Assembly: GCF_000165425.1 (NCBI RefSeq)
Contig: NW_001798981.1
Location: 190,661-254,660 of the forward strand
Source of the DNA: Paramecium tetraurelia
Taxonomy: Eukaryota > Ciliophora > Oligohymenophorea > Peniculida > Parameciidae
DNA: 64,000 nucleotides
Direction of reading: 5' to 3'
The notes under the pieces were generated by a model. The model was not told the origin of the DNA. It saw only the letters and a list, made by a program, of their open reading frames with translations, and did not search any database. Shown in pieces: positions 6,874 through 64,000 of this stretch (position 1 is its first letter; every line of letters begins with the position of its first letter). Both the position numbers and the translations under genes were made by a program.

Positions 6874-6906
6874 AAATGATAATATATAATTATGATTATG
6901 ATTATG

Positions 6907-8900: not shown

Positions 8901-9121
8901 CATTTCTGCTTATTCAATAACTTCCAAAGTGAGGTAAAACATGAAATCTAAAATCAGTGAGTTTTTTTTTCTCATCATAAGGTATGTTGTTCAAGCTTTA
9001 TAGATTAATAACTTTAATTATTAAATAAAATGGAAGTTTAATAAAAACTTTTTTTTTTTTTATTAATTAATACAAAATTCTATAAAAATCATAATGTATC
9101 AAAATTCCTCGTAGCTTTAAA

Positions 9122-10369: not shown

Positions 10370-10609
10370 CCAAAGTTAAATAATTATTAAATAGATTTTT
10401 ACATTTAATGAAACAAAAATGAAAAATATCACATAAACTGGTAGATTCCATTTTCAATTCAGTTTTAAAGCTAAATATATAAAAACCTCTATGAGGACAG
10501 GATATCTTCCTTTAAACTTAGATAACCTAATTTTTTAAGTGAATATTAAATTAAGATTATTGATTCAATAAATAATTTGATTTCTTAAATTCAATACTTT
10601 ATACAATTT

Positions 10610-11280: not shown

Positions 11281-11306
11281 AATTATTATCACTTTTTTCA
11301 TCTTTC

Positions 11307-13139: not shown

Positions 13140-13503
13140 TTTGGATTGTTAGAAGGATCGTTTTAATTCTGAAACTGCCCCTTGATTCAGTTCTCGAAAG
13201 GAAATAAAACTTTGGACTTCACTATCTGGTTAAATTTGAAGCAATTCACAATTCTCATTTATCGCCATTGGGTAAAACTGATTCAATGACAAAGGACTTA
13301 ATTTGTTGTGAGTCTTTTTATATTTTTCGAATAGAGTTGTTATGTCCATTCTTGCGTTTGAATGAAAAGAAAGAGAATCAACTTTTGGACTGTAGATATC
13401 CATTATATAATTATTATTATTATGTAGAAATCCTGGGAAACCTTATGTAAGAATCTCAGAAGTCCTTTCCTTTAACATTTCTTGGATATTTAAACTCTCA
13501 TCG

Positions 13504-42240: not shown

Positions 42241-42479
42241 TTAAAAATTAAAATTATCAATAGGTCAATCCTTTATACATTTAATGTACACATACATATC
42301 CACAAATAGTTCGCTCTTTTTCACTGTAAATCTGGTTTGTACTCATTTCCATTGTAATGATATGTCAATTACCATAAAAAAAAAAAACCTACTATTTTTA
42401 GATCAATTATTTTATTGGCTACATTATAGTTTACCATACACTTGTTTTATCCTAGATTAATTTTGATTGATAAAAAGTT

Positions 42480-43560
42480 ATTTAATGGTTACGCCCTTTT
42501 CAATAGACCAAATAAATTTAATAGACCCAGCAACAATATAATCTGTATCTGATCATAAATCCTATCTATCGAAAATAATGCCTAAATAAAGGCATTCTTT
42601 TTGATATATATAAAATAATTGAAACTAAGTAATGATGGAGAAGATAAACAACTTATAGACTTGGATCAGGCGAAAATTAGTACTAATAGAAAGTAATAGA
42701 GGAACTTCTCGATGTATTAGTAGGCCTATTTAAAAAGCTATCATTTTCTTGATGCCTCAAAATTATAATGATAAGAGTTTAGTTGAACAAATAGTTAACA
42801 ACCATTGAAAACTCTTGGAATTAAGAATGATTCATCCAACAGGAATTTCAGCCAGAATTTTTATAATACTATCTGAATAGCTCATCTGCTTTGAACAAAT
42901 CAATAAAATTTCAATTTCTAACGTCAACAACATCAATATTTTAAAAGAAGGAGTGTGCATTAGGATTGGAACAACTTAAAGATAAAAAAAACAACAAGTT
43001 ATGCTCCTTTGAATAGAGTCCTATATTCAACTTGCAAAAGTATTTCACCAATAAAATAAAAATTCAGAGTAAAGTCCAAGCATTTTTGCTACATCTTTGA
43101 TGCTTTTTTTTCTGCCTCAATAGAGGAGCAAAAAGAAATTGATAAAATAAGTCATATTTTACAAATAACAGAAGAAATCATATTTTGAGTTATCTGCAAT
43201 AATCTGCTCCAACCCTTAATTAGTAGAAACTATTAATCAAAGATCTAATGGAAACCAGACAAGATCGTTCTTTAATAGAGGTTTGAAATTATTCTTAAAG
43301 TTCATCTAATAATTAAACTCTGAAGGAAATATTCTCAATTGCATTGCTTGTGATACGCAATTATAATTGGGAACTAATTGAAGGTAGGCTATTTGAAACT
43401 TGTTTTGTCAAATTTAAATATATGATTCAAGAAATTTCTTAAATAATGAAGAAATGAAGCGAGAACTTATGGTATCCATTGTTATTTATACATTAGATAT
43501 ATAAATTCTGAATTTCTGTTAGAGAACTTTAAAATAAAGACGTACTCAATTACAATTAAT
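42480..43560 (+). pseudogene. Decayed gene, plus strand
   Basis: Protein-like pieces occur in different frames broken by TGA: about 42613-42808 (MMEKINNLQTWIRRKLVLIE), 42812-43010 (MIHPTGISARIFIILSEQ) and 43085-43375 (YFELSAIICSNPQLVETINQ, NCIACDTQLQLGTN). No set of short introns that I tried joins them. The middle piece (LKEGVCIRIGTTQRQ) is reminiscent of the G box end of a kinase ATPase domain, which would make it a dead relative of the neighbouring histidine-kinase-like gene, but this is a guess. Confidence 0.4.
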
Positions 43561-43651
43561 GAATAATCTAATTCTGGATTACTCTGATAACATTTATATA
43601 TATTTGTGTTATTAATATATTAGTTTAATAAATTTTTATTGTTAATTTAAT

Positions 43652-44716
43652 ATGGCAACTAACAATCTTCCAACATTTTACCCAGGATAATAATCAATGA
43701 CAAATGTTTAACCATCAATATTCTAATAACAAGGAGGTGAAGAATATTATTTATCAGAGTAGGACCTATCTATTAAGGCAATCAAGGTATTCTATAAGGA
43801 TTAGGGTCACCTTCAGTAATGTAGTAAAATTAATAGATACCATATGGAAATCGTATGAAATGCTTAAAATATTAGAATACGGATTAAATGGAAGTAATTA
43901 TGGGGTTCCATCATACTAATCTCCTCAAAGAATCGTGTCCTAAAGAATGATGTAATAATCTCCATAAGTTATTACATCTCCTATAATTCAACAATAAGCT
44001 CCTCCTTTTTAATAATAAGTGCAATCGAGTGTGCAATAACCATCAGTCAGTATCAGAATAACGATAACATTAAATAGTTCACAATGTTGAGCATGTCCCA
44101 GTCATTCATGAACTTCATCATGTGAATCGTCCAATAAATGTCATTTCAGTGGATGAGATTGAAGGGCCTTGGAGAAGCAAAGTATTGTTGTTGGAGAAAC
44201 AATTAATTGAATTATAATTGATGTTAAAGAAGGGTCCAGTTAAGTAGGTGCAAGCAAAGCAAATAGTAGTGGAAGACGAAGGAAAAGTATGTTGAATAAA
44301 TACTATCAATTAAATAGATCAGATAACTGTAAAGTGAGGTGGAAAGACTCCAAGCCATCCTAAGAGAGAATCAGAAAGAGATAGATGAATTGTAATAACT
44401 CATAAATGATGCTACATTCAATCTAGAAAATGCTGAGGAGTAGGCATCCTCTCAAGTGGAAGCTCAATAAGCCGAATTGGCCAAATGGAAGAAGAAGTTT
44501 TCAGAGTTGAATAAGAAGTTCCATGATATTGAAGAAGATATCACTATGACTGAGGCTTAAATAGAGAGTATTCAGAAAAGAAAATTGGTCACTCAAACTA
44601 CATCTACTGTTAAGACTACTGCCAAAACTTCAGGAGTATTTCTCCATATTTATAATTAGGGTACATATGGGGATGGAGATGTCAGAAAGAGCGGTTTTAG
44701 CAATAGGAATTATTGA
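43652..44716 (+). CDS. Gln/Pro-rich protein with VPV motif and coiled coil
   Basis: 310 aa after five introns (26, 23, 28, 31, 24 nt), in frame. Residues 1-115 are low complexity (GILQGLGSPSVMQQNQQIPY, IIQQQAPPFQQQVQSS). Then comes a short hydrophilic beta-like stretch, IHNVEHVPVIHELHHVNRPI and VISVDEIEGPWRSKVLLLE. A coiled coil (~150 residues: QLQSEVERLQAILRENQKEI and on) is followed by a Thr-rich tail ending VRKSGFSNRNY. The VPVIHELHHVNRPI piece recalls the Val/Pro repeats of alveolins and articulins that build the ciliate epiplasm, but there is only one copy, so this is a suggestion only. Confidence 0.6.
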
Positions 44717-44740
44717 TTTATTCAAAAATTATAAACATTT

Positions 44741-45775
44741 ATGCTAAATACAAATTCAAATTAATTTGTTCATTCCAAATTAATCTACGCGTGTGCCATA
44801 TCTCCTAAAAGTACTATAGATAATTAGAGAATTATATTGGGAACTATTGGCTCAGGAGGATAATAAATTATATGTAACCAATCAATTAATCTATTTTATA
44901 GAATTGCAATCTGCACAAGAAGGCTATAAAATTAAAACCTATCATTTGCATAATGCATTCAGTGCTAAATTATTATTTCTCAATCAAAATGAAGGAAACG
45001 AAAGATTTGTCTCTGCCGGCGAAAAACTTTAAATATTTAAATCAGAAGACTAAAAAATCAGTCATATTTGTGACCTAATGCCTTTAAGCAAGGAGTATGT
45101 CGGCCCTACATTCGCCTTAGATTTTCATTATGAATAGCAAAATAGATTAAGTATAGATTTTCACATATCTCACTTTTAGTCTCTGGTTCTCTGGATCCTA
45201 CAATAAGAATTTGGGATCTCGAAAAGAGAAAGTGCTAATATCAGTTTATTGCATATGACATATCCAAAGAGCCTGATCAATACACTTTGGATTTGAATAT
45301 AGGTCGTGATACAAACATCTTGGCATTCCTGAATAATTATAACCAAATTGGAATCTACGATATCAGAACTAAAATGGGTCTGCACAAAATCAAAGGCAAA
45401 TTGTAGTATAATCAAGTGATCTGGAATAAAAAATAAGATAATAATTTGATTGCCATAGATTATGAGGCGGGTCTTATTGATTTTTATGATACCCGAGATT
45501 TTAAAAATAAATATAAGAGAATCAGAACTGACCATAGATAAATTGTCAAAGCTGAATGGTTTCAGGATAGAAAGTAATTAAGCATTATAATGATTAGTTC
45601 TTTGATTACTGCAGGACTGGATAGATAAATTATTCTTTACGAGGGTGACAAGTATCTGGAACCATGCTTTGGGTTAACTAAGAATTATGATATAGACAAT
45701 TTCTGTTGTCAAAACAATCTATTTGGAGTTGTCTCTGAATATTCTTTCGAAGTTTTTAGTTTTGAAACCTAATGA
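44741..45775 (+). CDS. DCAF7/HAN11 (TTG1)-like WD40 protein
   Basis: 325 aa after introns of 28 and 29 nt. WD-type repeats: KLIYACAISPKS, ERFVSAGEKLQIF, RLISGSLDPTIRIWDLEKRK, LAFLNNYNQIGIYDIRTK, VIWNKKQDNNLIAIDYEAG and SLITAGLDRQIILYEGDK, ending VSEYSFEVFSFET. Order and details match DCAF7: the SLDPTIRIWDLE repeat corresponds to SIDTTCTIWGLE, and VIWNKKQDNNLIA to LCWNKQDPNYLA. DCAF7 is a highly conserved scaffold for DYRK/HIPK kinases and DDB1 ligases, about 340 aa. This copy is divergent. The match is by eye. Confidence 0.6.
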
Positions 45776-45796
45776 ATTTTTTATTAAAAATTATTT

Positions 45797-47043
45797 ATGA
45801 TAAAAAAATTCATTTTTAATTGCCATCTCAATCGATTCTAATTCAGCAATACTTTAAACAATATAAGCAAAACCTTATACTTGATAAATTAAAGATTAGG
45901 TGAATTAAATACTGAATATGAAACGTATTAAGATCAAACAATTAAGTAATTGCACTTCATTAATATCTAAGAGGAGACATGAACGAAATCAAAAGAAGAA
46001 GAATGAATGAACTACAACCTAAAATACACATCTATAAATAAATCTAAGCAAGTGTGTCTGTTATTGAAGATGCCAAATAATTAATTGGTATGGGAGGTTC
46101 CTCTGATGAAATATCAATGTTAAATGAAGAAATTTAAGTACATTCAATATAATAAATTTAGTCTTAAATTGAATATTTAAAGAAATATTAAGATGATGCT
46201 CTATCATAATTAATTGAAGAAGATGAGTACGATCACATTAGATAACTCAATGTTGAAGTGAGAGCAGGTGTTGGAGGCAGTGAAGGTTCATTATTTGCTG
46301 AAGATATAATTGGAATGATCTAGAATTATGCTAGTCTCTAAAATTGGGATTGCAGAGTAATTATAATTAATATTTTAAAGGTAATATCAATACAAAAAGA
46401 CAACCAAATTGGTAAAGGTTGTAAAACAGGTATTCTATAAATCAATGGTGAGAATGTTTATTAACACTTAAAGTGTGAATCTGGAGTACACAAAGTTATT
46501 AGAGTTCCAGAAACAGAAGCTAAGGGAAGATTGCATTCAAGCACAGCCTCCATGATTGTACTTCCAAAAGTAACTGATAGCTTTCATTTAAGTGACAAAG
46601 ATTTGAGATATGAATATATGAGAGCAAGTGGACCAGGTGGTCAACATGTTAATAAAACTGAAAGTGCTTGTAGAATTACCCATGTTCCCACTGGAATTCA
46701 AGTTGTAAATATGGAAGACAGAAGTTAAGAGAGAAATAAACAAAGAGCATATCAGATTTTAAGGGATAAATTATTTGCAATTCATGTGTAAGAGAAATAG
46801 GAAAGAATGGCTCAAACTAGGAAAAGTTAAGTTACTGGGTCTGATAGAAGCGATAAGATTAGAACCTACAATTTTCCTTAAGAACGAATTACTGATCATA
46901 GAACTAATTTAACTTTGTATGGCATGGAAAAAATGTTATCTGGGGAATTGTTAGGCGAATTCATCTAGAAGTATTAGGAGAAAATTCATAATGCCAAATT
47001 ACAAGATTTATTAGATGAATTATAAAATGAAAATAAGAAATGA
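45797..47043 (+). CDS. Mitochondrial peptide chain release factor 1
   Basis: 398 aa after introns of 26 and 24 nt. Contains the catalytic motif [19 protein letters not shown] and the preceding block [17 protein letters not shown] with [19 protein letters not shown]. The RF1-type tripeptide PxT is present as PET, which in RF1 reads UAA and UAG. A long N-terminal region (helical, about 140 aa) and a basic start ([20 protein letters not shown]) suit mitochondrial import. The C-terminus ([31 protein letters not shown]) is canonical. Bacterial-type length (~360) plus leader. Firm identity. Confidence 0.93.
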
Positions 47044-47361
47044 TAATTTTATGTGCGTATTTATAATAATATTATTTATCTACTATCATCATTAATTCAA
47101 TAGTATATAAACTTTAATTATTATAATATAAAATATTGAATAAGATGTGGGTCAATTTATGATATCAATAAATTATGGGTAATAATAAGATTTTTATATA
47201 GGTTTGTGATATCTTAATTAGTGAAATTATTTTGATAGTTTTATAGTTAATAAAATAAACTTAAATATAAAAAGGTTGATAAATAACATGTTATTATTAA
47301 ACTAAATCAGTTATGAATTAATACAAAAACCATCTCTATTAAAATCAATTTAATCAACAAT
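47044..47361. other. Intergenic, AT-rich
   Basis: Convergent spacer of about 300 bases between release factor 1 (plus) and the next gene (minus). It includes an AT dinucleotide run at about 47378-47393. Nothing else seen. Confidence 0.45.
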
Positions 47362-48073
47362 ATCATTAATATAATTAAATATATATATATATATTAAAAA
47401 ACTCGTGGTTTCAACTTAGGTATAATATCTTTATTCCTTTCTCCTATCAGATTAACTCTTGTATAATAATTTTCATTTTCAAAATATACTTTTTTTGAAG
47501 AGAAATATATTTAACTATTTTAATTAAATTCATCACAATTGATATTAGTATTTTTTTCGCTAAATTTTCTCTTCATTTAGGGAATGATCCTGTCATCATC
47601 CTAATTAAGGTTAAAAATTATTATCAAAGATTCATACTCTCAACTCTGGTCTATGGTAATATACTTTAAAAATAAAATAGATTATTGAATATACTAAATA
47701 TTTCATCCTCCTCTTCATCATTTAGGGCTACTAGGGCATATGATTTGATCTATAACTTTTTATTTTGAAATTTCTAATGTGAATTTGAAACAGGTTTCCT
47801 TCTTCTTAAAACAAGGACTATCTATGTAATATCTCTTAAATATAAACGTCACTTCCGAAATGTTAAGATCTATGCTTTTTAAACAATTTTGCATAAGTTA
47901 ATTTATCAGTGTCTAATTATATTTGATTAAGTCTTAGGACTTAAATCGATTGAATGAGAGAAAAAGATATTAGTATTTGATTTAGTTTATTTGGAAGAAT
48001 GAAAGAAATAGTTTGTTAGAGTATCACTAATTTTTTAATTTATAGTTATTTAAACTCTATTAATGCGTATCAT
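47362..48073 (-). CDS. Hypothetical protein, intron structure unresolved
   Basis: Strong coding signal in pieces: DTLTNYFFHSSKQTKSNTNI near 48000, LVALNDEEEDEIFSIFNN near 47720, and a C-terminal part with DDDRIIPQMKRKFSEKNTNI and RVNLIGERNKDIIPKLKPRV. A 31-nt intron near 47821-47851 and one or two more near 47600-47700 are needed to join them; I could not settle on a model that is in frame throughout. The first possible ATG (48073-48071) is only two bases after the stop of the dCMP deaminase, so the true start may be ATG 47893. No family recognised. Confidence 0.45.
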
Positions 48074-48075
48074 AA

Positions 48076-49228
48076 TCAATGTACATAATGACTAGAATCA
48101 ATTTATTCGACTTTAACATATTTATGAAGTTCACTTTTGGCTGCACTTTTATCGTAATCTTCTTCATAATATATCTTATCAATTTTTGTTGACAAAATGA
48201 TCTTTGTACATTGCAAACATGGAAATAGGGTAGTATACATAACCATATTTTTAGACTTTTTGGTACCTATTTCCAATATGGCACTCTCTTCAGCATGAAA
48301 ACAAAAACATTTTTCTAGATCTACTCCTTGTTTTGTATTTTGATTGCACCTGTCACATCCCTTTTCCCAACAATTCTATTTGCCATAAGGAGTGCCATTA
48401 TAACCAGTTGCAACAATTCTGCTGTCTTTTACAATAACAACACCGACTGCCCTTTTCATACAATTTGATCTCTATTTAACAACATTTGCTAGATGCATGA
48501 AGTATTAATTCCAATTAGGTCTGATTGGTCTGAAGATATCTTAATACTTCTTATAGAAACTAATGAGTAGATCTTTTTAGTCTCCCACATTGCCTATTTA
48601 GACTTTTGCTTTATGCATGAATTCTGAGATGTTGTCAGATATAACATCGTCAATAATGCAGAATAAATCAAGAGGGATGTTTAATTAATATTTCTTCATA
48701 AAGTTTTCATACCTTTTAATTATAGGTGCCTCTACTGCTATCAGATGAAAGTAGTTTCTTTGATACAATAATTCTAATTCATATTTATCAGTTATGGGAT
48801 AAAGAATTTGATGTCTAGGATTATAAGTCAAACAACTTTCCAACTTTTGTTTTGTCGAATGTGGATGGAAATGTTGATCCCTAGTTTCCTTTAATAATTT
48901 TTCTAATTCCTCCAATTGATTAGTATTATAACAACTAAGATCTAAACCCATTTATTTCTCTTGCATCATTTTTAGAGTATCATCTAAGAATTCTCTAATA
49001 TTCATGGTCTCAGTGATTGAAATCACTTGACATTCCGTACCTTAGTATTTACTGATGATTTATGCTACTTCTTCTTTACCAGATCTAAATCAAATTGATA
49101 ATTACCCTAGTCTTCCACACAAACCAATTATTAACCCTTAATTATTATTACTATGCATAAATAAAAATTTGTATATTATTTAACTTAAAATAATTAGACT
49201 TCACCACATCAATGTTTTCCAATGCCAT
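48076..49228 (-). CDS. Deoxycytidylate (dCMP) deaminase with N-terminal P-loop domain
   Basis: Converts dCMP to dUMP for thymidylate synthesis. 365 aa after introns of 34 and 21 nt. The N-terminal ~150 residues have a P-loop (GLCGRLGSGKEEV) and a nucleotide-kinase-like layout, an arrangement also seen in yeast DCD1 but not in human DCTD. The C-terminal deaminase domain starts [20 protein letters not shown] and has the zinc ligands FHAEESAIL and [12 protein letters not shown], plus [20 protein letters not shown], typical of dCMP deaminases. It ends [14 protein letters not shown]. Start ATG 49228-49226 is the first in-frame Met. Confidence 0.9.
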
Positions 49229-49495
49229 TTTTAATCCATTTCAAATTAAATAGATTCAAGCATTACTCTGCGTTATATTACTTTTTTTTTCAATAAAATT
49301 AATCTAATTCTATTAGATGTAATTAAACCAACCTTGATGATCAACGAACTTGAAATTTATTCATGTCCACAATAGATTAGATTTTCAATCCCTGGCCAAT
49401 CTAAGAAACTGTGTATAGAAAACCATGAATTTAGTGTGATTGACCATCATTATTTATAATAAAGACCTTTATCAATATATTAAATAATTTAATAC

Positions 49496-51093
49496 TCATC
49501 TCCTTGTTTTATAGATCAAACAATTATCTGGTTCTGCACCATAGAGAAACCTGATACCAAACTTAAGTTAAACATCTGGGTTAAGACTAACTTAGAACTT
49601 TCTAATGATATGACATAAAATGATTTTTAATTCCATTTAAGCCATATGTTGACCAATGCAATTTCTTCCTCCTGCTCCAAATGGAATATGAACAAAACCA
49701 TTATCTGATTGAATAGCTCCTTGACCAGTCAACCATCTCTTGTAATCGAATACTTCAGGATTACTAAAATGCTCATTTCTAATAACAGGAATATCATGTC
49801 TTTGGACTACCATCCATCCTATGATGTATTAATTAGATCATACCTTTTTTAAGTTTGATATCAAGAAATTGCATATCCTATTAAACCAACCTTACAAAAG
49901 GGGAAAAAGCTGGATTCCTTAATCTGAAGACTTCCTAAAAGATTATAGGATATTTTACATTTATAAATGCGTTCATTTTCACAAGCTTTGGAAGATGAGT
50001 ATCCTAAACATCTGAATCTTACATTAAATCTTTAATCTCCTCCAATAATTCATTTTGGACATCTGGATATTTTGCCAAATAAACCAGACAAGTTACAGTC
50101 ATAGTTGCAGTTGTATCAGTTCCAGCAAAAAACAATGTCAAAAACTATTAAAGTACTGGTTCGAAATCTATGTTCTTTTTACTTCCTTCATTTTACTATT
50201 TCAATAATTCACATAAATAAATATCTAAAAAACATTAATCTTTATCTTTCTCTTTCCTTGCTTCAGTTTCTCCTTTTAACTATTGTATCCTTGTTTCAAT
50301 TAGTTGCTTTACAGTGTTTCTAAGCGTATCCACCCTATTATTTATATCTTTTTCCTTTTTAGTTGCCAATATTCTCCATCCTTTATTACCTAGTATCATT
50401 AATTTAATTTAAGTGTAAGCATTTTTAAATCGTTACAACATTATATCGGCAACTAGCTTTACTATTTCTACTTGTCCAGGTTTCCCATTTATAGTTAATC
50501 CTTTGGCAATTTCACCAAAAAAACTATGAATGACTACTTCTCCTGTTATCCATGAAATGAAATCAAAAGAATTAGTTTTTGGATCCAAAATACATCTTTC
50601 TTTTACAGTTTAATTAATCATAGGAATTCTTGATTTCAATTTCTCAAAAGTAAAGGCTAATCCTAATAGAGTTCTCTAAAATCTCCATTCTTCACCTTCT
50701 GTCATTAACAATCCTTTATCAATCAAGTTGCTATCTACAATTCATATTATACTCATATCTAAGAAGATTAAACTTTGGGAAATTTTAATATTCCAAATAC
50801 ATTTTCTTAATATATTCGCTATCCACAAAATTTATGAATGGTGTATCCAAAAAATTTGTCAACAAGATCTTTACTTGGGGATTTTCCCTCATCCTCTTTC
50901 TTAGATCATCAAAAAAATCACCATTTTATTTTAATGATCTAAAATTGTATTTCAACAAGCCCCAAATTGGTGCGTACCACAAATAAGCCTCCTTTCCAAA
51001 TTAAAGCTTCAATATCAATAATGGTATCAATGGTTTCAAAACTATTCTATAAAGGACATAAAAAACAAATATGATTATAATATAAAAAATCAT
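49496..51093 (-). CDS. Cytochrome P450 (ciliate type)
   Basis: Monooxygenase. The N-terminus is a membrane anchor (MIFYIIIIFVFYVLYRIVL) followed by a Pro-containing linker. The haem-binding Cys motif is HIPFGAGGRNCIGQHMA, the expected FxxGxRxCxG signature, and the C-terminal block ends DVQLKFGIRFLYGAEPDN. The I-helix Ala/Gly-x-x-Thr region lies near 50100-50130 (MTVTCLVYL to LTLFFAGTDTTATM when read on the minus strand). Length is about 510 aa, normal for microsomal P450s. The total length is not a multiple of three, so at least one short intron is present (likely near 50740). Substrate unknown. Confidence 0.9.
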
Positions 51094-51560
51094 TAATTTT
51101 AATATAATAATAAAAATAAAATAAATATCAGATAAATCTCTAAGAATTTTTAAATACTGACGATTGATGATTTAATTAATGTTATCAATTTAAACAAATC
51201 TGTTATCAATAAATTAATATTTTTCAAAATAAATTTCGATTTTTGTATATTCGGATAACCCTTAAAGTTTATGAAATTGATCATTAATTCTCTTTCTCAA
51301 AAAACCAAGAAATTTTGTTTTGAATTATTTCAAACTATATATTATTTATCCATTCTAAAATAATTTTACAGAAAAGGGAAATTATAATTCTATAACTAGA
51401 CTTTTAGAGTATTTTTAAATTCTTTCTATTTAAGCTTATAAATGATAACTTTAGTGCGCATTATTGTTAATAGAATAAGAAATTGGGGTTTATAACCTGA
51501 CCAGGGTTGATTAAATTTCCATATAATTTTTATCTGACTATAATATAAAATTCAGAATAG
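51094..51560. other. Intergenic, AT-rich
   Basis: Divergent spacer between the P450 start and the next plus-strand gene. It probably holds the first exon of that gene, for which no start codon is visible in frame, for instance around the ATG at 51442. Nothing else recognised. Confidence 0.4.
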
Positions 51561-52028
51561 GCTTAAAGCCTAATTCCATCAGTACCGATCTATACTTCAA
51601 CTCCTTAAATACTACAAGAAGTCTATTTGCCAACTCTTGGTTACCAATAATTTAGAGCAAATATATTAGATGAATACGATCAATACTTTGATTTTGATGA
51701 CTTCAATCAAATCAATCGATATGATGACATCATTCAATTAAGTTAGATTGGAGAATTGAGATTTGGGAACCCATTTAGTTATTCTTATGTTTCTCCATGG
51801 GAAGAACTTAGATAATTAAGTTTTGTGAATTATTAGGTTTAAGAAAAGAGTGCAAGTTTAATTTGGAGTAAAAGTTTATAGAGAGTATTTGAATAGAATG
51901 ATTTTAATGAATTAGACACTCTTCAGAATGTTTTTAAAGAATTGAACACTCTGCATAATGTTTTTAAAGAATTAAAATCTCTTCCACATTATAGCGATAA
52001 AAATGTAAGGAGGAAATCAATACGATGA
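51561..52028 (+). CDS. Hypothetical protein with internal heptad-like repeat, 5' end not found
   Basis: A clear ciliate-code frame without any Met, so the start must lie in an upstream exon. Residues read PSVPIYTSTPQILQEVYLPT, an acidic aromatic segment (LDEYDQYFDFDDFNQINRYD), FGNPFSYSYVSPWEELRQ and a repeated unit near the end: LDTLQNVFKE, LNTLHNVFKE, LKSLPHYSD. Ends VRRKSIR at TGA 52026-52028. No family recognised. Confidence 0.5.
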
Positions 52029-52068
52029 TTGGAATCCATCTTATCTTAACCGATAGGATGGATTCCAA
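52029..52068. repeat. Perfect 12-bp inverted repeat (hairpin) directly after the stop codon
   Basis: Left arm TTGGAATCCATC (52029-52040) and right arm GATGGATTCCAA (52057-52068). The inner bases (TTATC and GATAG) add four more pairs with one mismatch around the loop TTAACC. It begins at the base after the TGA of the preceding gene. Its GC content is well above that of the surrounding DNA. A role in 3'-end formation is possible but unproven. Confidence 0.7.
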
Positions 52069-52787
52069 TAGAGAATAATTACATTTACATTTATGAAATG
52101 AAATGAAATGAAAACCATTTATTTATATAAACATATATCTATAGCCTTTCTAAAATATGAAAGTTTAATTGAATTATAATGAAAACTTTAATTCTATTAA
52201 CTTTTTTTTGCTATCCCAAAGAAATTCATAAGAACAAAATAGTAATTGTTTTGATTTTATCGATATGATGAAATCAAGGGTTATTGTACACATAGTCAGA
52301 ATTTGATGGAATAAATAAGTAATATTGTAATAATGTTATATTAATTTTTAATAAAATTATTAATTATTCTCTTTGATTCTAATTAATTATGTTTTGATTA
52401 ACGTCAATAGCATATATTATGTGGATCTGATGAGCGATTATAATTACTGTAATTAATTAGGAAAACACTTCATCATAATGGTAATTATTTTCATTTAGAG
52501 AGCGATTTTCATTGCATATGTCGTTTAAGTTAGATATGGAATTTTAAACACTATATTCTTTTGGTTATAAAGGTGTAGTAATTAATATTTAATTCTATAA
52601 TTTATTAAAATAAATTCAAATTTGATTGTTATTATAGCATTAATTAATAATATAAATGAAGATTTATTATTGTAATTATTTATGATTATTATAAAATTTA
52701 GTATATCTTATTTAGCAATTCATTAGGCTAAAGTATTTAGCAATAAATTATCATATCTTATTATATTTTTTACTTATGTAAACAACA
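52069..52787. other. Intergenic, very AT-rich
   Basis: About 700 bases between two plus-strand genes. Runs of A/T with short frames only. It contains a short GAAAT tandem at about 52097-52111. Nothing recognisable as a gene. Confidence 0.45.
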
Positions 52788-54500
52788 ATGGACAAATTGT
52801 ATATTGGTATACGAGCTGAAGACAAATCATACATGGAGAGAAGAACACCCATTCCCCCTCATGATTGCAAGTATATTATGGAAAAAGTATATAATTCAAA
52901 ATATTTGTAGCATAATCAAATTTAAATAATTGTATAGCCTTCAACGAAGAGAATATTCACCGACGATCAATACTTAGAAGTGGGATGCTTGGTTTAGGAC
53001 GATTTATCGATCTGCAGAGCAATCATATGTATTAAGGAAATTCCCATTGAAAAATACATAGAAGGAATGACATATTTAAATTGGTCTCACACTTTAGAGG
53101 GGGAACCATATAATATGCCAGCTCTGGATGTGATGCTTAAGAAAAATATTAGGCATTTGGAGTACGAACGAATTTACGACGATAACGTAATCACTTATTA
53201 TACTAGAATAGGGTGTTAACATAACCTCGTTCCCTTACGCTGGTATCGCAGGAATCATCACGTTCTTGAATGAATACGGCAAGTACTTACTCAAAAGAGA
53301 CATGAATACACCATTTTTGCAAATCGGTCCAACTTTCTAATATTATAATAAAAAAGACGCTTATGAAGCCTTATAAAAGGCAGGCTAAGCTATTTAAGAA
53401 AGAGGACTCCCTCCTAAGCTAGGGTTGCCACTAATAATTGGAGTAATGGGTTCAACTGGTTCATGTGGTAAAGGTTCTTTGGAAGCCTTGTCTCAACTTC
53501 AGATTACACTGGTAAATCCAGAAGATTTGAAAGAACTAGTTAGGAACTCAAATGATAAAAAACATAGGAACACCGTTTATGTTTGTCCTTTTAAAACTAC
53601 TGATTTGGTTAGGCATAAACATGATGTTCACAAAGAATTCACATCTCAAGATTATTATGAAAATCCATTAGATTATGAACCTATCTTCCATCAGAAATAC
53701 CTACCCTATCTAACGATTCTCGTTAACGATATTTATTGGGAATACAAGTTTCCTCGATATGTTACTGATTCCTAAATTAAAGTAAGAAATATATTCTATA
53801 ACTTAGGAATTATTTGAATCTGGTAATAGTAGATTGCAGGCTGTATGTGATGTTACATGTGATCTAGAAGGCTCCATCTAATTCTTAAAGAAGTTCACTA
53901 ACCCTGATCATCCAGTTTACTATTATAATCCAATATCTCAATAAGTTCACGATGAATTCGATTTCGAATCTCAAAAGGACATCATGTATATGTCAATTGA
54001 TTTCTTGCCATCCTAAATGCCATATGAAGCCAGCATGGATTTCGGAAAAGCTCTAAGGAATATTGTTCCATACTTGGCCTACTCAGACCCAACAAAACCT
54101 TTAGAAGAGAGTGGGCTACCTGAATTTTTGTAAAATGCAACTGTCACTCTACATGGTTAACTTACTTAGAAATTTGAATACATCAATGAATTAAGAAAAC
54201 TTAATGAAACAGAAACTGACCATTAAAAGTTCAGAATGATAACGTCATACTATTCAAACAAAATTAATACAATTAAAGATAACACCTCAATAGACAATAA
54301 GTCACTATCTTAATAATAACTGTAACTTAATATCTTATTATATTAGATCAACTGATTCTGATGCATAGGATGATAGATTCTAATCAGAGGATTAATCTAG
54401 AAAGCTGCATACTTCTTCTAGTATTAGTGAGACTAATATCGATGAGGGTAGATCAGTTAATAATCAACGAACTTTGGAAGAACAAATCTAAATTTCATGA
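52788..54500 (+). CDS. Lysine-ketoglutarate reductase (LKR half of AASS), stand-alone
   Basis: First enzyme of lysine breakdown by the saccharopine route. 545 aa with three 25-nt introns near 53192, 53783 and 54326. Blocks: YIGIRAEDKSYMERRTPIPP, IIVQPSTKRIFTDDQYLEVG, NITSFPYAGIAGIITFLNEY, the nucleotide-binding loop IIGVMGSTGSCGKGSLEALS, the substrate-side block CDVTCDLEGSIQFLKKFT, YYYNPISQQ and MSIDFLPSQMPYEAS. This corresponds to the LKR portion of the animal bifunctional enzyme. The saccharopine dehydrogenase half is absent; instead a ~100-residue Ser/Asp/Gln-rich tail follows (TDSDAQDDRFQSEDQSRKLH). Identity of the domain is firm. Confidence 0.88.
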
Positions 54501-55689
54501 TTATTATTAATTTAGCTTTATTATTATTTTGAAATTTATATTTATAGTTAAATTTCTAATTAAGTCAAATAATAAATGGAATATCATTTATTACAAAATA
54601 AACTTTGGAATTTGATTTAGCAAATCAGATTATTTTAATGTGAATTTCCAAAGTCATGATTTCCTTATTATAATTTTAGAAATGAGTAAGTATTTATTGT
54701 ATTCTTAAATACTCATAAGAAATATTATGTCAAACTAATTCTTTTTTTGAAATAAATGTTTATCTCCTAATTATTTTATGATTGTATTGATATGATTTAC
54801 TATAATTTAGTGAGTACTTGGTTACAAAATTGTCTCTTAATGATCAAATAGAAGTAAGATATTGGATTTACAAATTGTATAAAGTTTCTCAAGATCATTT
54901 ATTAAAATCCACTTTTGTTTAGAATTGTTTGTATTTGAATATGGAGAGCAAAACTTAAGAATTATAATAGTTGTTTATTTTGATTATTTAAATATTATAG
55001 TAAATTCCTATGTTGATTTAATGAATAAATAATCTCTTTTATATTTATATTGTTTCACATCTACATTATTTATTCCTTTTTTCTATACATTTATAATATA
55101 AAATTGTAAAACAATTAAATTTATGTAAAGCTTTTCGAATTACTTGATAAGCTATTCACAATTCACAACACTAAAAATTTATAAAAACCTAATGTAAATG
55201 GATGCTTTTATATTCTATTTTGCAGTTAGATCTTGCAAACAAATCAACATCTTGTTAGGAATAGCAGATATCATACACTTCATCTTATTTTTCCCTATCG
55301 CATGTCAAGACCATTCTGAAAATACTATTCAATTGATTCAAACCTTTACTTTCATTTTCATTTATAAGATAATGATATACTTTTCCCTTCATAAAATATG
55401 AGTTACTTCATATTGACTAAAAAAAAATTCTTTAATGATTATGAATGATTTTGAAAATTTATTTATCATTATATTACTATCATCATACGATAAATTGATC
55501 TAAAAAATGAAATTGATAATTACATCAATCATTAATGATTATCTAAAATTAAATTATTCTAAAATTTACCATTAAATTAGGTTTATTGAATTGATATCAA
55601 ATCAGAATGTTTAGAACTACTTATCAAAGAATTTACAAAGTAAGGCATTTTAATTATTATTGTAATCTAAATAACATCATAAGTTCAAG
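54501..55689. other. Gene-poor AT-rich stretch
   Basis: Over 1 kb with no convincing frame. A 67-codon hydrophobic plus-strand frame at 55198-55401 has no supporting features and its composition is what AT-rich random DNA gives. I see no tRNA, repeat or hairpin. Confidence 0.4.
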
Positions 55690-57025
55690 AAAATAATTAG
55701 AAATAAAGGATTTTTCTAATTTAATAATGATATAATTGAATTTAAGAGAAATCTCTTAATATTTAGAACATAATAGTCGTTTTTTATTTGGATTCTATTC
55801 ATACGCTGATCTCTGTCCGATAATATTCTTTAAATAAAATTGGTGTTAATTTAATACAAAATCTGATGAAAAATTTAAGAAAAAACATTGATAAATAAAT
55901 TTAAAAGGTATATATTTATGAATGATGAGATTTTTATATTTAAATATAGATAAACATGCAATAACACTCTTTCTTAATCTTCAAATCTGTGTGATCTTAT
56001 CAAGTGATTAAATGCAATGAGTGCTAAAATCGTTTTTTATTGTATCTCTTGTCAGATTTCAAATTATTTAAGACGACATTTAGATTTCTTTAACTATAAA
56101 TAAATTTCCTTTTCATTATTAATTTCAAAAGGTGTTGAATGAGAAAAGTTGTTAAGGGAAAGACATCGAGTAATTAGATTATTGCCAAATTGCTTTTTAA
56201 TAGCTTTATAAGGATGACATAAATAGTCTTAAGAAATAAAATCGAACCTTCTTTGTTTCATTTAGTTTTTATTAAAACCCTTCTTTTAATCAAAGCAATT
56301 TAAGAAATATAATTAATCTCATCAATTCAATAGGAGGAAAACAGAAAAGAATATATACAGATTTCATTATTCTCCGTTTTATCAAAATTTTCATTAAATT
56401 CAATTTGGTACAATAAAGATGAGCTAATATTTTATCTATTATTATTTTATGGAGTAATTCATTTTTTAGTTGTAATTGTTGCATACTTAGATTAGTAAGG
56501 GAAAATAGTATTTGTAAATGTCTTTTTTAAATATTGTTAAATTGTATTCCACAATATCATATTCTTACCATCATTGAATATATTTATTAATTTTGCACTT
56601 TCATAAAACAATCTAGCATTATCACTAATCGGAATACTACTGACGATATTACTAGAATTATTATTTTGTTTTTTCAATCCTAAGATTGCTCTTTTTGAAA
56701 TCGAAGGATGTTTCTCAATTAGATCAACTAATGGATTTTATTTACTAATGCAATTTATTATTTGCTTTGTTGTTTAAGGCAAATAATCGAACACTGTGGC
56801 GGCTATTTTATTATTATTAGCAAAATTAGCAGTAATAAAACAATAAATACATAATAATGATTACAATAGCTGGTATAATTTGTCTATTTCAAATTTTGTT
56901 ATTTCTTATATTTTAGTGTTTTTGACAAATTAGTTTTGGAAAGATTTGGTTCTTATATATATTTTATTGAATACTCTCTTGAAATGTCTCAGATAAACAA
57001 AATGTGAAACAGAAGCATTTTAAAA
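55690..57025 (-). pseudogene. Decayed large gene, minus strand
   Basis: Long stretches are protein-like on the minus strand. From 57025 down: YLRHFKRVFNKIYIRTKSFQ, DKLYQLLQSLLCIYCFITAN, ATVFDYLPQTTKQIINC, NPLVDLIEKHPSISKRAIL, SDNARLFYESAKLINIF. Later, in other phases: NETKKVRFYFLRLF, FEINNEKEIYLQLKKS and TILALIAFNHLIRSHRFEDQ. TGAs break the frame repeatedly, no start codon is in frame at the 5' end, and its upstream edge abuts the start of the next plus-strand gene. The helical repeat style (LLQSLLCIYCFITANFANNN) is like armadillo or RIH domains of large channel or scaffold proteins, but the family is not certain. Confidence 0.45.
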
Positions 57026-57071
57026 CAAAAATCTAACTTTTTATCAATATACAATATTAAAACATCCTCAA

Positions 57072-60000
57072 ATGAGATCTAGTTTGAAAGACTTTTCACT
57101 ATTTTATAGGACCCTATCTGAAAACAGAAAATCTAACTATTAAGAGTAAATGATAAAAGAAGGATAATTTGAAGAAAGATTTGCTATTATAAATCACGTC
57201 TATCAATTTAATCAAATCTAATTATATTTAAATTTGATCAAAATTAATTCAGATTAACTAAATTGGTTTTAAAAAACAAAACTTGAAGCAAACCTTCTTA
57301 ATACTATATAATCCTCTTAAAAAGCAATGACATCTTCTTTAAATGTTCGATAATTCATTCAAGCACTTGATGTGGAATAATAAAACTTATGGCTTTTAAT
57401 TAATTTAATTGATGTAAAATGCCAGTTTTATAATTTTTTAATTAAAGAGTAACCTCTTTATTAATATTTATAAAATTTCAAAAAACAATTTGATAAATTA
57501 ATATATGCCCTTGAAAAATTTAAGGGTATTTTCGAAGGCTAATATGATCTTGAATCTGGAAAAATGAAAACTTCCAACACTTTCGATTATATTTCCATAT
57601 ATATCATATCTTCTTTTGAATATATTTTTTATGGTAATTATTTCAAAGTAATTTAACAATTGGTAATTTTAGGCAAAAGAACTTGAAAAAAAATAGAATG
57701 AAGTATCTGCATTAGATAAAATTATGAACTTGAAATTCTAAAGAAGTATTATATTAATAAATATAATAGATGAGGCTTTCCTTGTGTCTACAAGTGTTAT
57801 TAGGAACTCCTATACAATTTTAAATTCTAAGAATAAGAGACTAATGTTAGTGTTAGAATAAGAAAGTGAACCAAAGTTGATTAGTGATTTTCTACCTCCA
57901 TTTTCAAATACGATTTACAATAATCTTGTAAGTAATTACCTTTAGACAGGGTTTAATATAAAATAGCCTTGTTCTCTATATTTTTTGAGATTTGACTACT
58001 TAGTTGAGTGTGATTTTTATATAAATGCCCAAATGAGCAAGGACGACATAGTATTGTAAAATTATTTTGTTTTGAAAAATTAACCTAATCATTTACTTGT
58101 ATTTGATAATGAAGGTAAAATATTAGGGATAACTTATGACATTTTTGGTTATTTAATTTAAAAATCAGACAATACCTATACAAAGAATTTATCAGTTTCA
58201 CAATTTTTACATTGTGGAATGATTCAATATTATTTGCCAGAAATCTATAAGTTTATTTAAGATTTGGCAGGCTAACCTTCATCTGTTAGTAACCAACAGA
58301 TTCTAAATATCGCATCGAGATGGGATTTTCCAATTAACCATAAAAAATGCTTAGATTCTACTTAAAATCTACTACACTAATCAGATGAATAGAGTCACAA
58401 ATCAGTAAAAAAAAAGCCTTTGTATCACTAAACTTGGAAGAAATAATAAAGTTAGGTGTTGTTGGATGAAAATATTATAATTTAAAATGTATTGGTAAAA
58501 CTAATGTAAAAGCAACTAATCTAATAAATACAAAATCTTGTTGTACCTTCTTCTAGGATGAAAAGCATTGAGTTTGAGGGTTCGTTGGAATTTGTAAAGG
58601 TTAAATAGATGGAAGGTGATTCATGTTATTTTATATTGAGATTTAAACAAATAGAAGATTATTCATAAGATAAAGTTTAGAAGATTGTTTAAGAATATTA
58701 ATTTTATTCATCGTTGGCGATTGATGAATAACAATATGAAGATTTACAAATAGATTACGAATTTATTAGAAAAATAATCAATTATAAAACTTTCAATAAT
58801 TCACTTAAATACAATATTATAATACTGCTATTCATGATAATCATTACGATTCTTGCTTTAATTATCAATTATACTTAAAATTATGAATAGATGATCTATT
58901 ACTAGCATTTAGTTAATTTTCTTACTACTCCTTAGGCAATGACTTATAATATAGGAGCCGCATTTATATTGATGTGGAATCAATATTGTATTTAAAATAA
59001 ATTGTATTTAACAAGTCCTTATTTAGAGTAGAGAAGAGAAACTTAACTAGTTGGTTTATTCGAATTTTGGAATTAAGTCCAAGAAGAATATACTATGAAA
59101 CTAAGTATGAAGAGCATAGAATTAGGGATGAATAATATAAGTTTAATCTCGTTTGAGAACAATATTAAATCTACTGCTGATATAGATTTCTATTCATTTT
59201 ATGCAATAATGCGAGAATCTATGGTAAGATAGTTTAAAAATACTGATTTTAATGATAGTACTACTTTTGATCCTGGAATATTGTAAACAAATGGAACAAT
59301 TAGACAAAATATGCTATAAATATTTAAGTTTCATCACAAAGTATAAGATGAAGTAATAGAATAGACAGAAATATCCTTTTCATAATTCGAGGACCAAACC
59401 TTTAAGCTTTGTATTTATTCTTCTGCTGTAATATTACTCTTTCTAGTAATTTTTATAATAATTAATTGTTCTTTGTTATAAAAGTAAGCTAAACTCATTA
59501 GATTGCTTTAATACTTGAACATCAACATAATTTTTGATTAAGTCGAGATTTTGAATTTCTAAAAAGAATAATTGTAAAAATTATTAATAGTGTAGAATAT
59601 TCAAAAATCTAATCCTCTGACTTCATAACAAAACGAAAAGGCTCCTTTAATTTAGACCAAACTTAATCCTTTGAGTAAATTAGATAATTATGATGAGAAG
59701 TATCATTTGTTGATAATATTATCTTTGATCATAGGAGTTTAACTCATATTTTTCATTTTTGGATCTTAGATAATAGCTCAATTGTATAATAGAGATCACT
59801 AAGATAGTTTAATCTTAACAATGAAATATCTTAAATTAAAAACTCGATTAGATTCAACTATAATTGTTGGGGAAATAATAAAAACTGAGCATCTTTTGAA
59901 AAATAATAGTAATATTAATTTCATTAATGAGACTGAACACATCTAGTTCTTTTTTGACAATGTTGATCAGTTAAACAATTTATCAAATAATATCAACAAT

Positions 60001-60648
60001 GACCTTCTAACAGTTTCATCCTACAACTCCTCCTTTTAAGAGAAACTCTTAGACATATTTAACAAAGATTTATGTCTGCATTACACATTTTTATTAAGTT
60101 TTTGTATAATTGACAATATCAGAATTGATTATTACGAGAACGAAAACTATTTAACATTAATAGATAAGGGGATATTTGGAATATTGCAAGATTTAGATAA
60201 ATTAGCCAAGTAGGATTACAATTATGAGTATATCAATTAAAAATATGAATACAACCAAAGCCATTCAGATTACTTTCTAAGCTAGCCAATTCATAATCAC
60301 TTATTTTAATAATACTTTATCGAAATCTAAACTTGTATTTATCTGTGTTTTCTTGATATTTTTGCTGAAACCAAAGTTTTAAGTGACAGATTATCAAGTT
60401 CGATTCTCCTCTACTTAGTCACATCTTCTGTCGTGTAATTTATTTATCAATATATAGTTTCTTGTTATTAACATGGTCGATTGCTGGATTTTGGATTTAT
60501 AAATAATATAAAAGATGTAACCAATTAAAGTTAATAGCTACTTTATTTCCTCCTGCTTTATTAAAGTAGAATAGCTTCAATAAATTGTTGCATTTTTAAT
60601 TACTGTAAAATAAGTGATTGTTAATTTGACATAAATATTTACAAATGA
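57072..60648 (+). CDS. Large multi-pass membrane protein with PAS-like region, ciliate expanded family
   Basis: 1183 aa; one 25-nt intron near 57649-57673 makes the whole frame divisible by three. N-terminal ~200 residues are a helical bundle (for example NVRQFIQALDVEQQNLWLL). Residues ~215-440 contain INIIDEAFLVSTSVIRNSYT and a PAS-like segment (LLVFDNEGKILGITYDIFGY, HCGMIQYYLPEIYKFI). Then come membrane segments around 57.6 kb-equivalent residue 580 (IIILLFMIIITILALIIN), 770 (VILLFLVIFIIINC), 860 (LIILSLIIGVQLIFFIF) and near the end. This layout is that of the many PAS/multi-pass proteins of Paramecium and Tetrahymena often named after tiny macrocysts. Function unknown. It is the last gene before the telomere, 716 bp away, transcribed toward it. 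Confidence 0.72.
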
Positions 60649-61363
60649 ATTAAATTTGATATAATTATCTTAATCTTTTTTTAAATTGCTCCTTTTTTGA
60701 TGGTTGTAACCTTAGAGAAGGGAGTATAATATTTATTCCAATATTTATAAATTAGAATGAATTAATTTATAAAAATATTTATCAAAATTTTGTTTTACCT
60801 AATTTTTAGCTAATATAAAAATATCAAAAAATAATAATCCCATAAAGCATTTATTTTAGCACCACAAACATATTTTACAAAATTTAAACCTTCAAAAATT
60901 GCAAATAATATTCTCCCTGAAAGTGGTTTTTATTTTTCACCTTTTTAGCTACCATTAATATTAAAACTTTAAGAATTACCTAAATCTCAATTTAGAAGCT
61001 AAGGAGACATTTACCACATATTAAGGCTGTGTAGAGGAATCATTTTATGAATCATCTGAGGGCACATTCATATCTATCCTTGTCCTTTTGTTGCCCTTTT
61101 GCTTAACTTATTCTGGTTACAAAAACCAGGTTAATTATTCTAACTTAAACTTAGATCTCACCTCTTCTGCTTCACTAAAAGACTTAGATTATCTTCTCTT
61201 TCTACTTGCTTACTGTTATTATCCTGCTTGTTTTTAACTATTTTTTATCACTTATCTTTCTGGATTCTCCTAATTCCCATTTTTTTACCTAAGAATCTAA
61301 CCAAGGCTAGATTTATTAAGTTGACCAGTTAATTAGACCAATCTTAGAAAGCTACCTCTTGAA
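60649..61363. other. Subtelomeric non-coding region, left chromosome
   Basis: About 700 bases between the last gene and the telomere repeats. From about 61060 the plus strand becomes rich in CT (polypyrimidine, e.g. around 61160-61250). No frame or known repeat. Confidence 0.55.
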
Positions 61364-61424
61364 GGGGTTGGGGTTGGGGTTGGGTTTGGGGTTGGGTTTG
61401 GGGTTGGGGTTGGGTTTGGTTTTT
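61364..61424 (+). repeat. Telomere array, G strand (T2G4/T3G3 mix): right end of a chromosome
   Basis: About 60 bases of GGGGTT and GGGTTT units in mixed order, starting right after CTCTTGAA. The mixture of T2G4 and T3G3 is the known Paramecium telomere. The orientation (G-rich strand reading rightward) means the chromosome to the left ends here. The last bases before the gap, TTTTTCC, are not regular telomere. Confidence 0.93.
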
Positions 61425-61426
61425 CC

Positions 61427-61576
61427 NNNNNNNNNNNNNNNNNNNNNNNNNNNNNNNNNNNNNNNNNNNNNNNNNNNNNNNNNNNNNNNNNNNNNNNNNN
61501 NNNNNNNNNNNNNNNNNNNNNNNNNNNNNNNNNNNNNNNNNNNNNNNNNNNNNNNNNNNNNNNNNNNNNNNNNNNN
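61427..61576. other. Assembly gap, 150 N
   Basis: Unknown sequence between two telomere arrays facing each other. Its size is presumably an estimate from paired reads. Confidence 0.99.
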
Positions 61577-61597
61577 GGTAATGCACACCGAAAGATA

Positions 61598-61856
61598 CCC
61601 AAACCCCAACCCCAACCCCAAACCCCAAACCCAACCTCAACCCCAACCCCAACCCCAACCCCAACCCAAACCCAACCTCAACCCCAACCCCAACCCCAAA
61701 CCCAACCCCAAACCCAAAGCCAACCCCAAACCCAAACCCAAACCCAAACTAAACCCAAACCCAAACCCAAACCCAAACCCAAACCCAAACCCAAACCGAA
61801 ACCCAAACCCCAACCCCAAAACCCAAACCCAAAACCCAAACCCAAAACCCAAACCC
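61598..61856 (-). repeat. Telomere array, C strand: left end of the next chromosome
   Basis: About 260 bases of CCCCAA and CCCAAA units. Toward the inner side the array is mostly CCCAAA with variants (AAACTAAACCC, CCGAAACCC, CCCAAAACCC, AAAGCC) and ends at TTTAAAAAC. The orientation means a chromosome begins here and runs to the right. It is about four times longer than the array on the left of the gap. A non-telomeric 21-base piece (61577-61597) lies between the gap and the array. Confidence 0.93.
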
Positions 61857-62993
61857 TTTAAAAACAAAATTTAGTTTTTTGAATTTGTGGGTATTCGATA
61901 AAAGGTTCCCGAAATGCGCCAGTCTTCTTGGCTAGGTATGAAACTTATTCGATTATATTCTTTTATTCTTTAATGTTAGTGACATGTGGTATGTATATTG
62001 GTGTACAGCCGTCTAATTATCTGAGGCCTAGCCCAGACAAAGTTATTTCTTCACCAAAGGTAGATAATGTAATGGTTACGCTTGTTATTGTATCTTGAGA
62101 CATGATAGATGCTTCCTTCCCTCTTTGCATATGAGAATAATATCTTGATTTCCCCTTTATTTTCTATTGGCAAAGCAAGCATAACTCCATAAATTGATAA
62201 CCATAATTCAAATTGAAAATTATTATAAATTTAATAAAAATAATACACACATGAACTTAATCTGATTTAAGGTCTTTAAACATTTTTTCAATAAATCAAG
62301 GAAACTGAAAAGGTAACCTTTTAATTTAGCAAGTATTAAATTCGCAGCTCATAAAAATATAAAACTTCTTTTTTTTTGTTTAATTTTTGATTCAATTATT
62401 GTAAACCCTTGACAGATTTGATTTTAAACATTTTAAGGCTTGGATACTGGAAATTTACATAAATGCAATAAAATATCAATAAAACAACTTGATAATTTTT
62501 ATTTTATTCTATTCAGGGATTTATTATTACTTAGTAATTATATAAAATTAACTTTTATAACTCAATCATTCTATATTCGCCATCCCTTACAACATTTTTT
62601 ATTTCTTTTAACAATTCTGCAAAACAGTTAACCTAAAATACTACTCTAGAACCCATTTAATTTTTATTTGCAAGAGAATATTTCACTTTTACGAAAAACG
62701 TAAGGTCAATCATGGTTCTATTGACTTTAAGAATATGATCTTCTTTTATTTTTAAAAAAGTTCTCAATTTAGAATTCGGTAATGGTTTTTGCTACTTTAG
62801 CGAGAATTAGATCACCATTTACTTACAATCATGTGTGTAATCAATTTTTGGCTTCACAAAAGTGTAACCTCACCTTATCCTTAACTAATTGATGTCAATA
62901 TATCATTTCGTAATTAATTATAAATTTTTATTGTAAATAATACCCTTAAAATATATTTAATAAATTTCACCTTTTAACATATCACAAGGTTTC
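61857..62993. other. Subtelomeric non-coding region, right chromosome
   Basis: About 1.1 kb from the telomere array to the first gene. The first 250 bases are less AT-rich than the rest (CCGAAATGCGCCAG, GAGGCCTAGCCCAG). No convincing frame; the 63-codon frame near 62440-62631 is of random AT-rich composition. Confidence 0.5.
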
Positions 62994-64000
62994 TCAAGTG
63001 CTAGTATTTGTGAGCAGCAATTAATTGACACATTTAATGAGTTTATTCTCTAACAAATCCAGTCCTAAGCATTCGAAAACTAATGGATTTAATCCTCTTC
63101 ATTTATGAAAATTCTAAAGGTCAAAAAAAACTACAAAATATCTGCTAGCACAATACAATCCATTTGATTTACATTTGAAAGTGCTACTTTCCATAAAACA
63201 TTATTGTTTTTTGGAAATTTTGGCATATTTTCTTCCTTCTTTATAATTTCTGTATCACAGCATTATATACTTATTTTGATCCATACTTTAGTAGGCTTTA
63301 ACATTTATTTGTTATACTCTTACTTTATAGTGTATCGAATAAATTTTCTAAATGATTTATTTACTAGCTTTGATTTTTGTCAAACCTTCTCTTACTTTTG
63401 ATAAAGTTGTTTATCAATCATAGTCGAATCATATGTATTGTTTGTATATTTAGTTAGACATCTTTAAAAGATTTACCATATATTAAAAAAAGTACATCTT
63501 TCTCTCTCCATATCATATTTATTTTTAAAATGTGGGATTCTTTTGTTATAATTATTACTGAATTCTGAATGACTGTTATTGGAGCTGAGCATTTGTATTA
63601 AAGACATAGTTTTATTTATTTTATCCTCTTTTACTTTTCTTTCATTTGCATGTATTACTAGCAGAAATTGGAGTAAGCCTTGCTAATTTATTGATATGCA
63701 ATTGCTGGGATGGATATTTTCTTGTTGGTTAACATTTTTATGATTACCACAACAAATGTAAACTCAGGATTAATTGACCTTAATTTATTTCTTAAATGTT
63801 CCACCATTAAGATTGCTAGATAAAATGATTGTTTATTGAATCCAACAGCAATAGCATTTGTAAATAATGGTAGAAGCACTTTTAAACCATCTAAAATCTG
63901 TCTTTAGAACACAATTATTGAACCAGCTAGAATATAGTTAAAGCGATAGCTGAAGAATCACGTTCTTGTAAATACATACTTATTAGGAAAATAAACATTC
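62994..64000 (-). CDS. Membrane-type helical protein, cut by window end; possible internal stop
   Basis: Reads from the right edge: ISMYLQERDSSAIALTIFQL, then DRFQMVQKCFYHYLQMLLLL and NIQEINQGQLILSLHLLW. Introns of 25 (about 63645-63669), 32 (about 63372-63403) and 21 nt join further exons: NKTMSLIQMLSSNNSHSEF, KNKYDMERERCTFFNIWQIF, VQQINVKAYQSMDQNKY and CFMESSTFKCKSNGLYCAS. An in-frame TGA at 63101-63099 is followed by a further good stretch (RGLNPLVFECLGLDLLENKL) up to TGA 62996-62994. Either the gene ends at 63099 or it carries a nonsense mutation. The style is like the expanded ciliate multi-pass membrane families. Transcribed toward the telomere. Confidence 0.5.

Follow-up and report, generated by a model that had tools for sequence, protein, structure and literature searches.

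Facing telomere arrays across a 150-N gap in a Paramecium tetraurelia scaffold: two probable healed ends placed in one contig

When two telomere arrays face each other inside one scaffold, does the scaffold join ends from unrelated places, or does it record a site where the same germline locus is fragmented in some copies and joined in others? We addressed this question in a 64,000-nucleotide stretch of Paramecium tetraurelia DNA (C28:190661-254660, hereafter the window), which belongs to a contig of 273,579 bases in a genome assembly of 231 contigs and 69,072,372 bases. A preliminary description had framed the junction as either a scaffolding chimera or an alternative fragmentation site, and we found this to be the right alternative to pose. 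Its background statement, that imprecise fragmentation in Paramecium is followed by telomere addition or by joining, is also sound: passages of PMC3408717 and PMC7599177 treat imprecise elimination leading to telomere addition or imprecise joining as established, and credit the founding work to Le Mouel 2003, Amar 1994, and Caron 1992. Since this outcome is already established, the junction would add no more than another locus to a known kind. The traits of Paramecium are present here, including long frames under code 6, mixed G4T2/G3T3 arrays, and a Paramecium_SA Pfam domain in the piece to the right of the gap.

Geometry of the junction

TRF returned 11 rows for the window, only two of which are telomere-type. 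The left array consists of GGGGTT/GGGTTT repeats with the G strand on the plus strand at 61364-61419 (9.3 copies, score 91), while the right array is a minus-strand ACCCAA array at 61597-61856, with its C strand on the plus strand (42.7 copies, score 319). The gap at 61427-61576 is exactly 150 N long and is the sole N run of the window. Sequence, TRF, and the N-run count all bear out the coordinates first given for the G-strand array, the gap, and the facing C-strand array. Both arrays have the form of telomeres, with mixed G4T2/G3T3 repeats and the G strand pointing outward, and their orientation supports the earlier proposal that one molecule ends here and another begins. Two details of that account needed adjustment. 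The arrays had been said to run into the gap and to leave it; they do face each other, but they are not in contact with the gap, since non-telomeric tails of 7 bases (61420-61426) and 20 bases (61577-61596) lie between. Furthermore, the right side begins with a capped end as proposed, but calling it another chromosome may be too strong for a gene-poor piece that has no right telomere.

We searched for the right tail elsewhere and found no other occurrence in the genome of its 21-base form (61577-61596 and the next base) with up to 2 mismatches allowed, nor an exact match in genome_contigs; a 25-base piece of another contig-end tail was likewise absent from genome_contigs. A bacterial or vector origin of such tails gained no support from searches of one collection per tail: two tails of other contig ends had no match in E. 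coli genomes, and one tail of another contig end gave a single chance-level match to plasmids. Since tails of at least 10 bases, some of them partly telomere-like, were seen at 21 of 42 parsed arrays, both junction arrays included, tails are ordinary in this assembly.

To place the junction among other arrays, we used a 24-base telomere pattern, which had 231 genome-wide matches (146 + 85) in 69 Mb, and analyzed 43 arrays, comprising the junction pair and 41 others from listed places, a set that is not a full census. A contig end lies within 100 bases of 31 of these 43, the junction pair not being among them. Because there are 231 matches in 69 Mb and 31 of 43 arrays sit at contig ends, arrays this long are not due to chance. 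Six of the 43 have an N run on their contig-start side (C3, C28, C40, C101, C120, and C221), with C40, C101, C120, and C221 inspected at bases 1-300 and in the stretch beside the array. C3:1-1372, C28:1-4660, and the starts of the other four contigs are N from the first base, and the array comes directly after the N run; such N may stand for gaps or for sequence that was withheld. The array of C174 is followed by N. Three of the 43 lie at 150-N gaps, namely the junction pair and one array at 16.4 kb of C51. At C51:16431-16700, an array is followed by a GC-rich tail, exactly 150 N, and then array-free sequence, a one-sided join of the same type.

The length of the junction gap is probably a placeholder, because the gap adjoining the C51 telomere is also exactly 150 N; this reading draws on the two telomere-adjoining gaps with both sides readable, each of 150 N. 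A placeholder would be expected where read pairs leave two arrays no room. For context, published passages count 861 gaps in the Sanger assembly of P. tetraurelia, 442 of which were later filled, and a passage of PMC3464196 places 96% of 72 Mb in large scaffolds.

Truncated repeats and repeat polarity

If the arrays are genuine ends made by de novo telomere addition, they should cut off sequence abruptly, and homologous copies of that sequence should be free of telomeres. This is what we found on both sides. To the left, a 105-bp repeat on the plus strand at 61253-61357 matches C57:230750-230852 at 75% and ends 6 bases before the left array, while the C57 copy continues beyond the match end with no telomere, 4.8 kb from the end of its contig. 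To the right, a 210-bp repeat fragment at 61857-62066 is truncated exactly at the array and matches C217:122378-122585 at 77% and C83:13794-13997 at 70%. The longer copies on C217 and C83 resemble each other over about 0.9 kb at 68% and remain similar until about 500 bp past the cut point, again with no telomere. Since each array truncates a repeat that continues elsewhere without a telomere, both are most likely genuine healed ends. An interstitial array belonging to the repeat family itself was ruled out, as the C217, C83, and C57 loci that we fetched hold no telomeric array.

The order of repeat variants within the arrays points the same way. In each half of the right array, 15 units were typed; G4T2 accounts for 1 of those in the proximal half and for 11 of those in the half nearer the gap (permutation p 0.00045), so that the array is rich in G3T3/G3T4 beside unique sequence and rich in G4T2 towards the gap. 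When the 36 arrays that have six or more typed units are taken together, 72 of 207 units in proximal halves and 117 of 207 in distal halves are G4T2, with the share rising from proximal to distal in 22 arrays, staying equal in 5, and falling in 9 (Wilcoxon p 0.022). A permutation test gave p 0.0002 for all 36 and p 0.0006 for the 34 that remain without the junction pair. The 17 arrays at right-hand contig ends (p 0.0004) and nine inner or N-adjacent arrays (p 0.0036) showed polarity clearly, but it was not seen at left-hand contig ends (8 arrays, mean difference -0.036, p 0.64); sequencing or consensus effects may lie behind it. The right junction array is the longest analyzed and among the clearest cases, and since its polarity runs in the same direction as that of the other arrays together, its outward end is at the gap. 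It is conceivable, if rather doubtful, that arrays record the order of synthesis, with first repeats mostly G3T3 (sometimes G3T4) and later ones mostly G4T2, and with telomerase making more errors, or being supplied differently, when it adds telomeres de novo than when it maintains them in vegetative cells. Among the paper titles listed in a literature search on repeat variants, none dealt with repeat-variant polarity.

These observations also bear on whether two telomeres truly fused head to head in macronuclear DNA at the junction, or whether it holds a telomeric repeat that has long been interstitial. The arrays are indeed inverted and facing, and gapless interstitial arrays do occur in the assembly (C1:1214 and C165:66236), but at the junction the arrays are separated by tails and a gap, the homologous repeat copies that were fetched have no array, and the polarity agrees with outward growth of a telomere towards the gap. 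We therefore regard fusion or an interstitial repeat as very improbable and continue with two healed ends.

The pieces on either side of the gap

The left piece measures about 247 kb. Its contig is N up to position 4660. Next to this N run, at about C28:4666-4684, the far end has a C-strand array that counts just three units (18 bases); among the arrays listed on C28, the one that follows is the left array of the junction, at C28:252024. Since there is a telomere-type array at both ends, the left piece is probably a nearly whole macronuclear chromosome, and its size fits the range of about 150 kb to 1 Mb that a passage of PMC3464196 gives for telomere-capped P. tetraurelia scaffolds. The last 10 kb (51364-61363) has a coding-like fraction of 0.351, and the last frame of more than 1000 aa is on the plus strand at 57568-60648.

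By sequence comparison, C19 is the likely partner of the left piece from a recent duplication. We searched two stretches, window 5001-14000 and window 41364-61363. Parts of the first match C19:218188-233076 at 76-85%. In the second, the counterpart of parts of 41.5-48.0 kb is C19:275973-285601 (74-81%) and that of 53.2-54.5 kb is C19:287116-288272 (73-83%), the last colinear match ending at 54544. Colinearity with C19 thus stops 6.8 kb short of the left array, and C19 itself ends at 293,094. The final 4.8 kb of C19 resembles neither the right piece nor the closing 6.8 kb of the left one, and it holds no telomere. That C19 and the left piece end in the same neighborhood argues that the left array is a regular chromosome end. 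On the other hand, since C19 ends without the right piece, synteny gives no bridge across the junction and cannot tell what lay beyond it.

The right piece occupies 61857-64000 of the window and continues as L009 and L010 (C28:254661-273579). It is 21.3 kb long, with 21,063 bases from the right array to the contig end and no second array. With a codon model, its coding-like share was 0.098, compared to 0.290-0.587 across the left piece (91 sliding windows of 21 kb), although the model is simple, was trained on most of the left piece, and calls only 0.449 of it coding. The right piece fell below all 91 windows at each of four settings, with a contrast that shrinks as settings loosen (0.220 against a left minimum of 0.438 at looser settings, and 0.398 against 0.510 at the loosest). 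Since the last 21 kb of the left piece, which lay outside the training stretch, gave 0.392, and the first 21 kb of C28, also held out, gave only 0.267, part of the drop in coding is a general effect of ends.

We identified one MORN-repeat frame in the right piece, one tubulin-like frame of 447 aa, and a region that matches antigen loci of other contigs. Surface-antigen genes are long single frames. In the antigen region, the longest minus-strand frame is 255 aa, and of eight frame pieces, one scored above the Paramecium_SA cut-off, one scored below it in another frame, and six gave nothing. Since the frames are short and broken where antigen genes are normally long and single, the region is probably a pseudogene. 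With the MORN gene excluded, the L009 section matches eight other loci, six of which lie within 4 kb of a contig start (C115, C153, C163, C164, C177, and C178), the remaining two being on C15 (16.5 kb from the contig end) and at 26.7 kb of C52. In sequence content, the right piece is subtelomeric in character. The repeat at L009:7178-7389 recurs near the starts of C164, C178, and C115 and may represent a subtelomeric family.

No partner block for the right piece appeared among the matches listed. Its best long matches there are to a tubulin-like paralogue on C28 and to antigen loci on C179, C51, and C10. The paralogue, at window 9262-10494 on the plus strand, is 81% identical to the tubulin-like gene of the right piece (C28:265282-266527) and is that gene's best match among those listed; the slot on C19 that corresponds to window 9262-10494 holds no tubulin-like paralogue.

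The content of the right piece raises another arrangement, in which it would extend the left chromosome as a longer, alternative end and was scaffolded in the wrong orientation, such that the right array is the distal addition site and C28:273579 joins 61363. Alternative telomere sites 2-13 kb apart are described in a passage of PMC7599177, a passage of PMC9788069 mentions a low-copy P. primaurelia chromosome with a surface-antigen pseudogene as a possible alternative end, and the right piece is subtelomeric in what it contains. This arrangement is unlikely all the same: the right piece would have to be misoriented in the scaffold, its 21 kb is more than the distances quoted, and the matches listed place a continuation of the left end on no other contig.

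Germline adjacency and related loci

Taken together, we favor with considerable confidence an explanation in which two genuine de novo telomeres, one at the regular end of the left piece and one at the start of a gene-poor right fragment, were scaffolded over a placeholder gap. The geometry, the low coding share of the right piece, the repeats that are cut off, the polarity, and the far-end array all speak for it, with de novo addition as the inferred step. During development of the somatic nucleus, broken ends would have been capped de novo by telomere addition at both arrays. The left array would cap a chromosome of about 247 kb at its regular end, and the right array would cap a gene-poor, subtelomeric-looking fragment, probably of the MAC-variable kind; the assembler would then have placed both pieces in one scaffold. 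In a further step, some macronuclear copies may have lost the DNA between the flanks and had the flanks joined, which would yield bridging read pairs, while in other copies both ends would have been healed by telomerase.

Whether the flanks are germline neighbors, joined in some copies and capped in others, is in our judgment about evenly balanced. Against this stands a plain scaffolding chimera, in which real telomeres from unrelated germline places were joined by chimeric clones or mis-mapped pairs; it is compatible with our favored explanation, and we give it slightly less than an even chance. The right piece is short and lacks a right telomere of its own, the gap is of placeholder size, and a passage of PMC8354472 reports a handful of chimeric scaffolds in the assemblies of three sister species. 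Furthermore, no homologous locus was seen with the flanks together, and past the left end neither the C19 nor the C57 locus carries any of the right piece. On the other hand, the head-to-head order would be expected from clones that bridge left to right, and a chimera would require clones joining both ends, beyond stray telomere reads, which would be expected to align to the opposite strand. Linkage is also mildly favored because, among the matches listed, the best one for the right piece's tubulin-like gene lies on C28 itself, an outcome to which length alone gives odds of about 273 kb in 69 Mb; this is a single observation made post hoc. Window 60001-61363 and 61857-64000 have no second near-identical, uncapped copy among the matches listed in 231 contigs, so no uncapped version of either flank is available.

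Among described systems, three resemble the junction most closely. Sites of imprecise elimination, as the passages cited above describe them, share the ends with mixed G4T2/G3T3 repeats at repeat-containing sites and have fragmentation and joining as alternatives, whereas our junction is known from its capped ends in the assembly. MAC-variable regions are described in passages of Sellis 2021 (PMC8354472) as assembly extremities kept in few copies, and they share with our locus scaffold-end sequence that has telomere-addition sites. They are defined there by low depth, whereas the right piece is poor in coding sequence, which we took as an accompanying trait, and lies beyond a capped end. The right piece is probably a MAC-variable fragment, that is, an imprecisely eliminated one of inferred low copy number. 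A third likeness is to a P. primaurelia chromosome that is under-amplified and bears a G surface-antigen pseudogene (Dubrana and Amar 2000, cited in a passage of PMC9788069), which also has a broken surface-antigen gene and a possible alternative end; that chromosome is another locus, probably of another species than the right piece, and the likeness comes from sequence.

If the flanks are germline neighbors, the junction adds one more locus at which fragmentation and joining compete, with its breakpoints mapped, and the right piece becomes a candidate under-amplified segment with a surface-antigen pseudogene. If they are unrelated, the junction is an assembly join, and the reference should be corrected by splitting it. 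In both cases, the order of genes and their distance over 61.4-61.9 kb of the window are not to be relied on.

Lastly, two of the 43 arrays lie gapless inside contigs. The one at C1:1214-1261 is a C-strand array, AT-rich on both flanks, 1.2 kb from the contig start. The other begins at C165:66236 (L023:335-384), and its flanks are colinear with C185:367683-368676 (89% over the whole match), where the counterpart of the array is about 60 bases of ordinary sequence. From this comparison, the array looks like capped copies overlaid on continuous copies in the consensus, or like a small insertion. If it is a consensus overlay, this assembly would directly show that a single locus can exist in both capped and continuous form.
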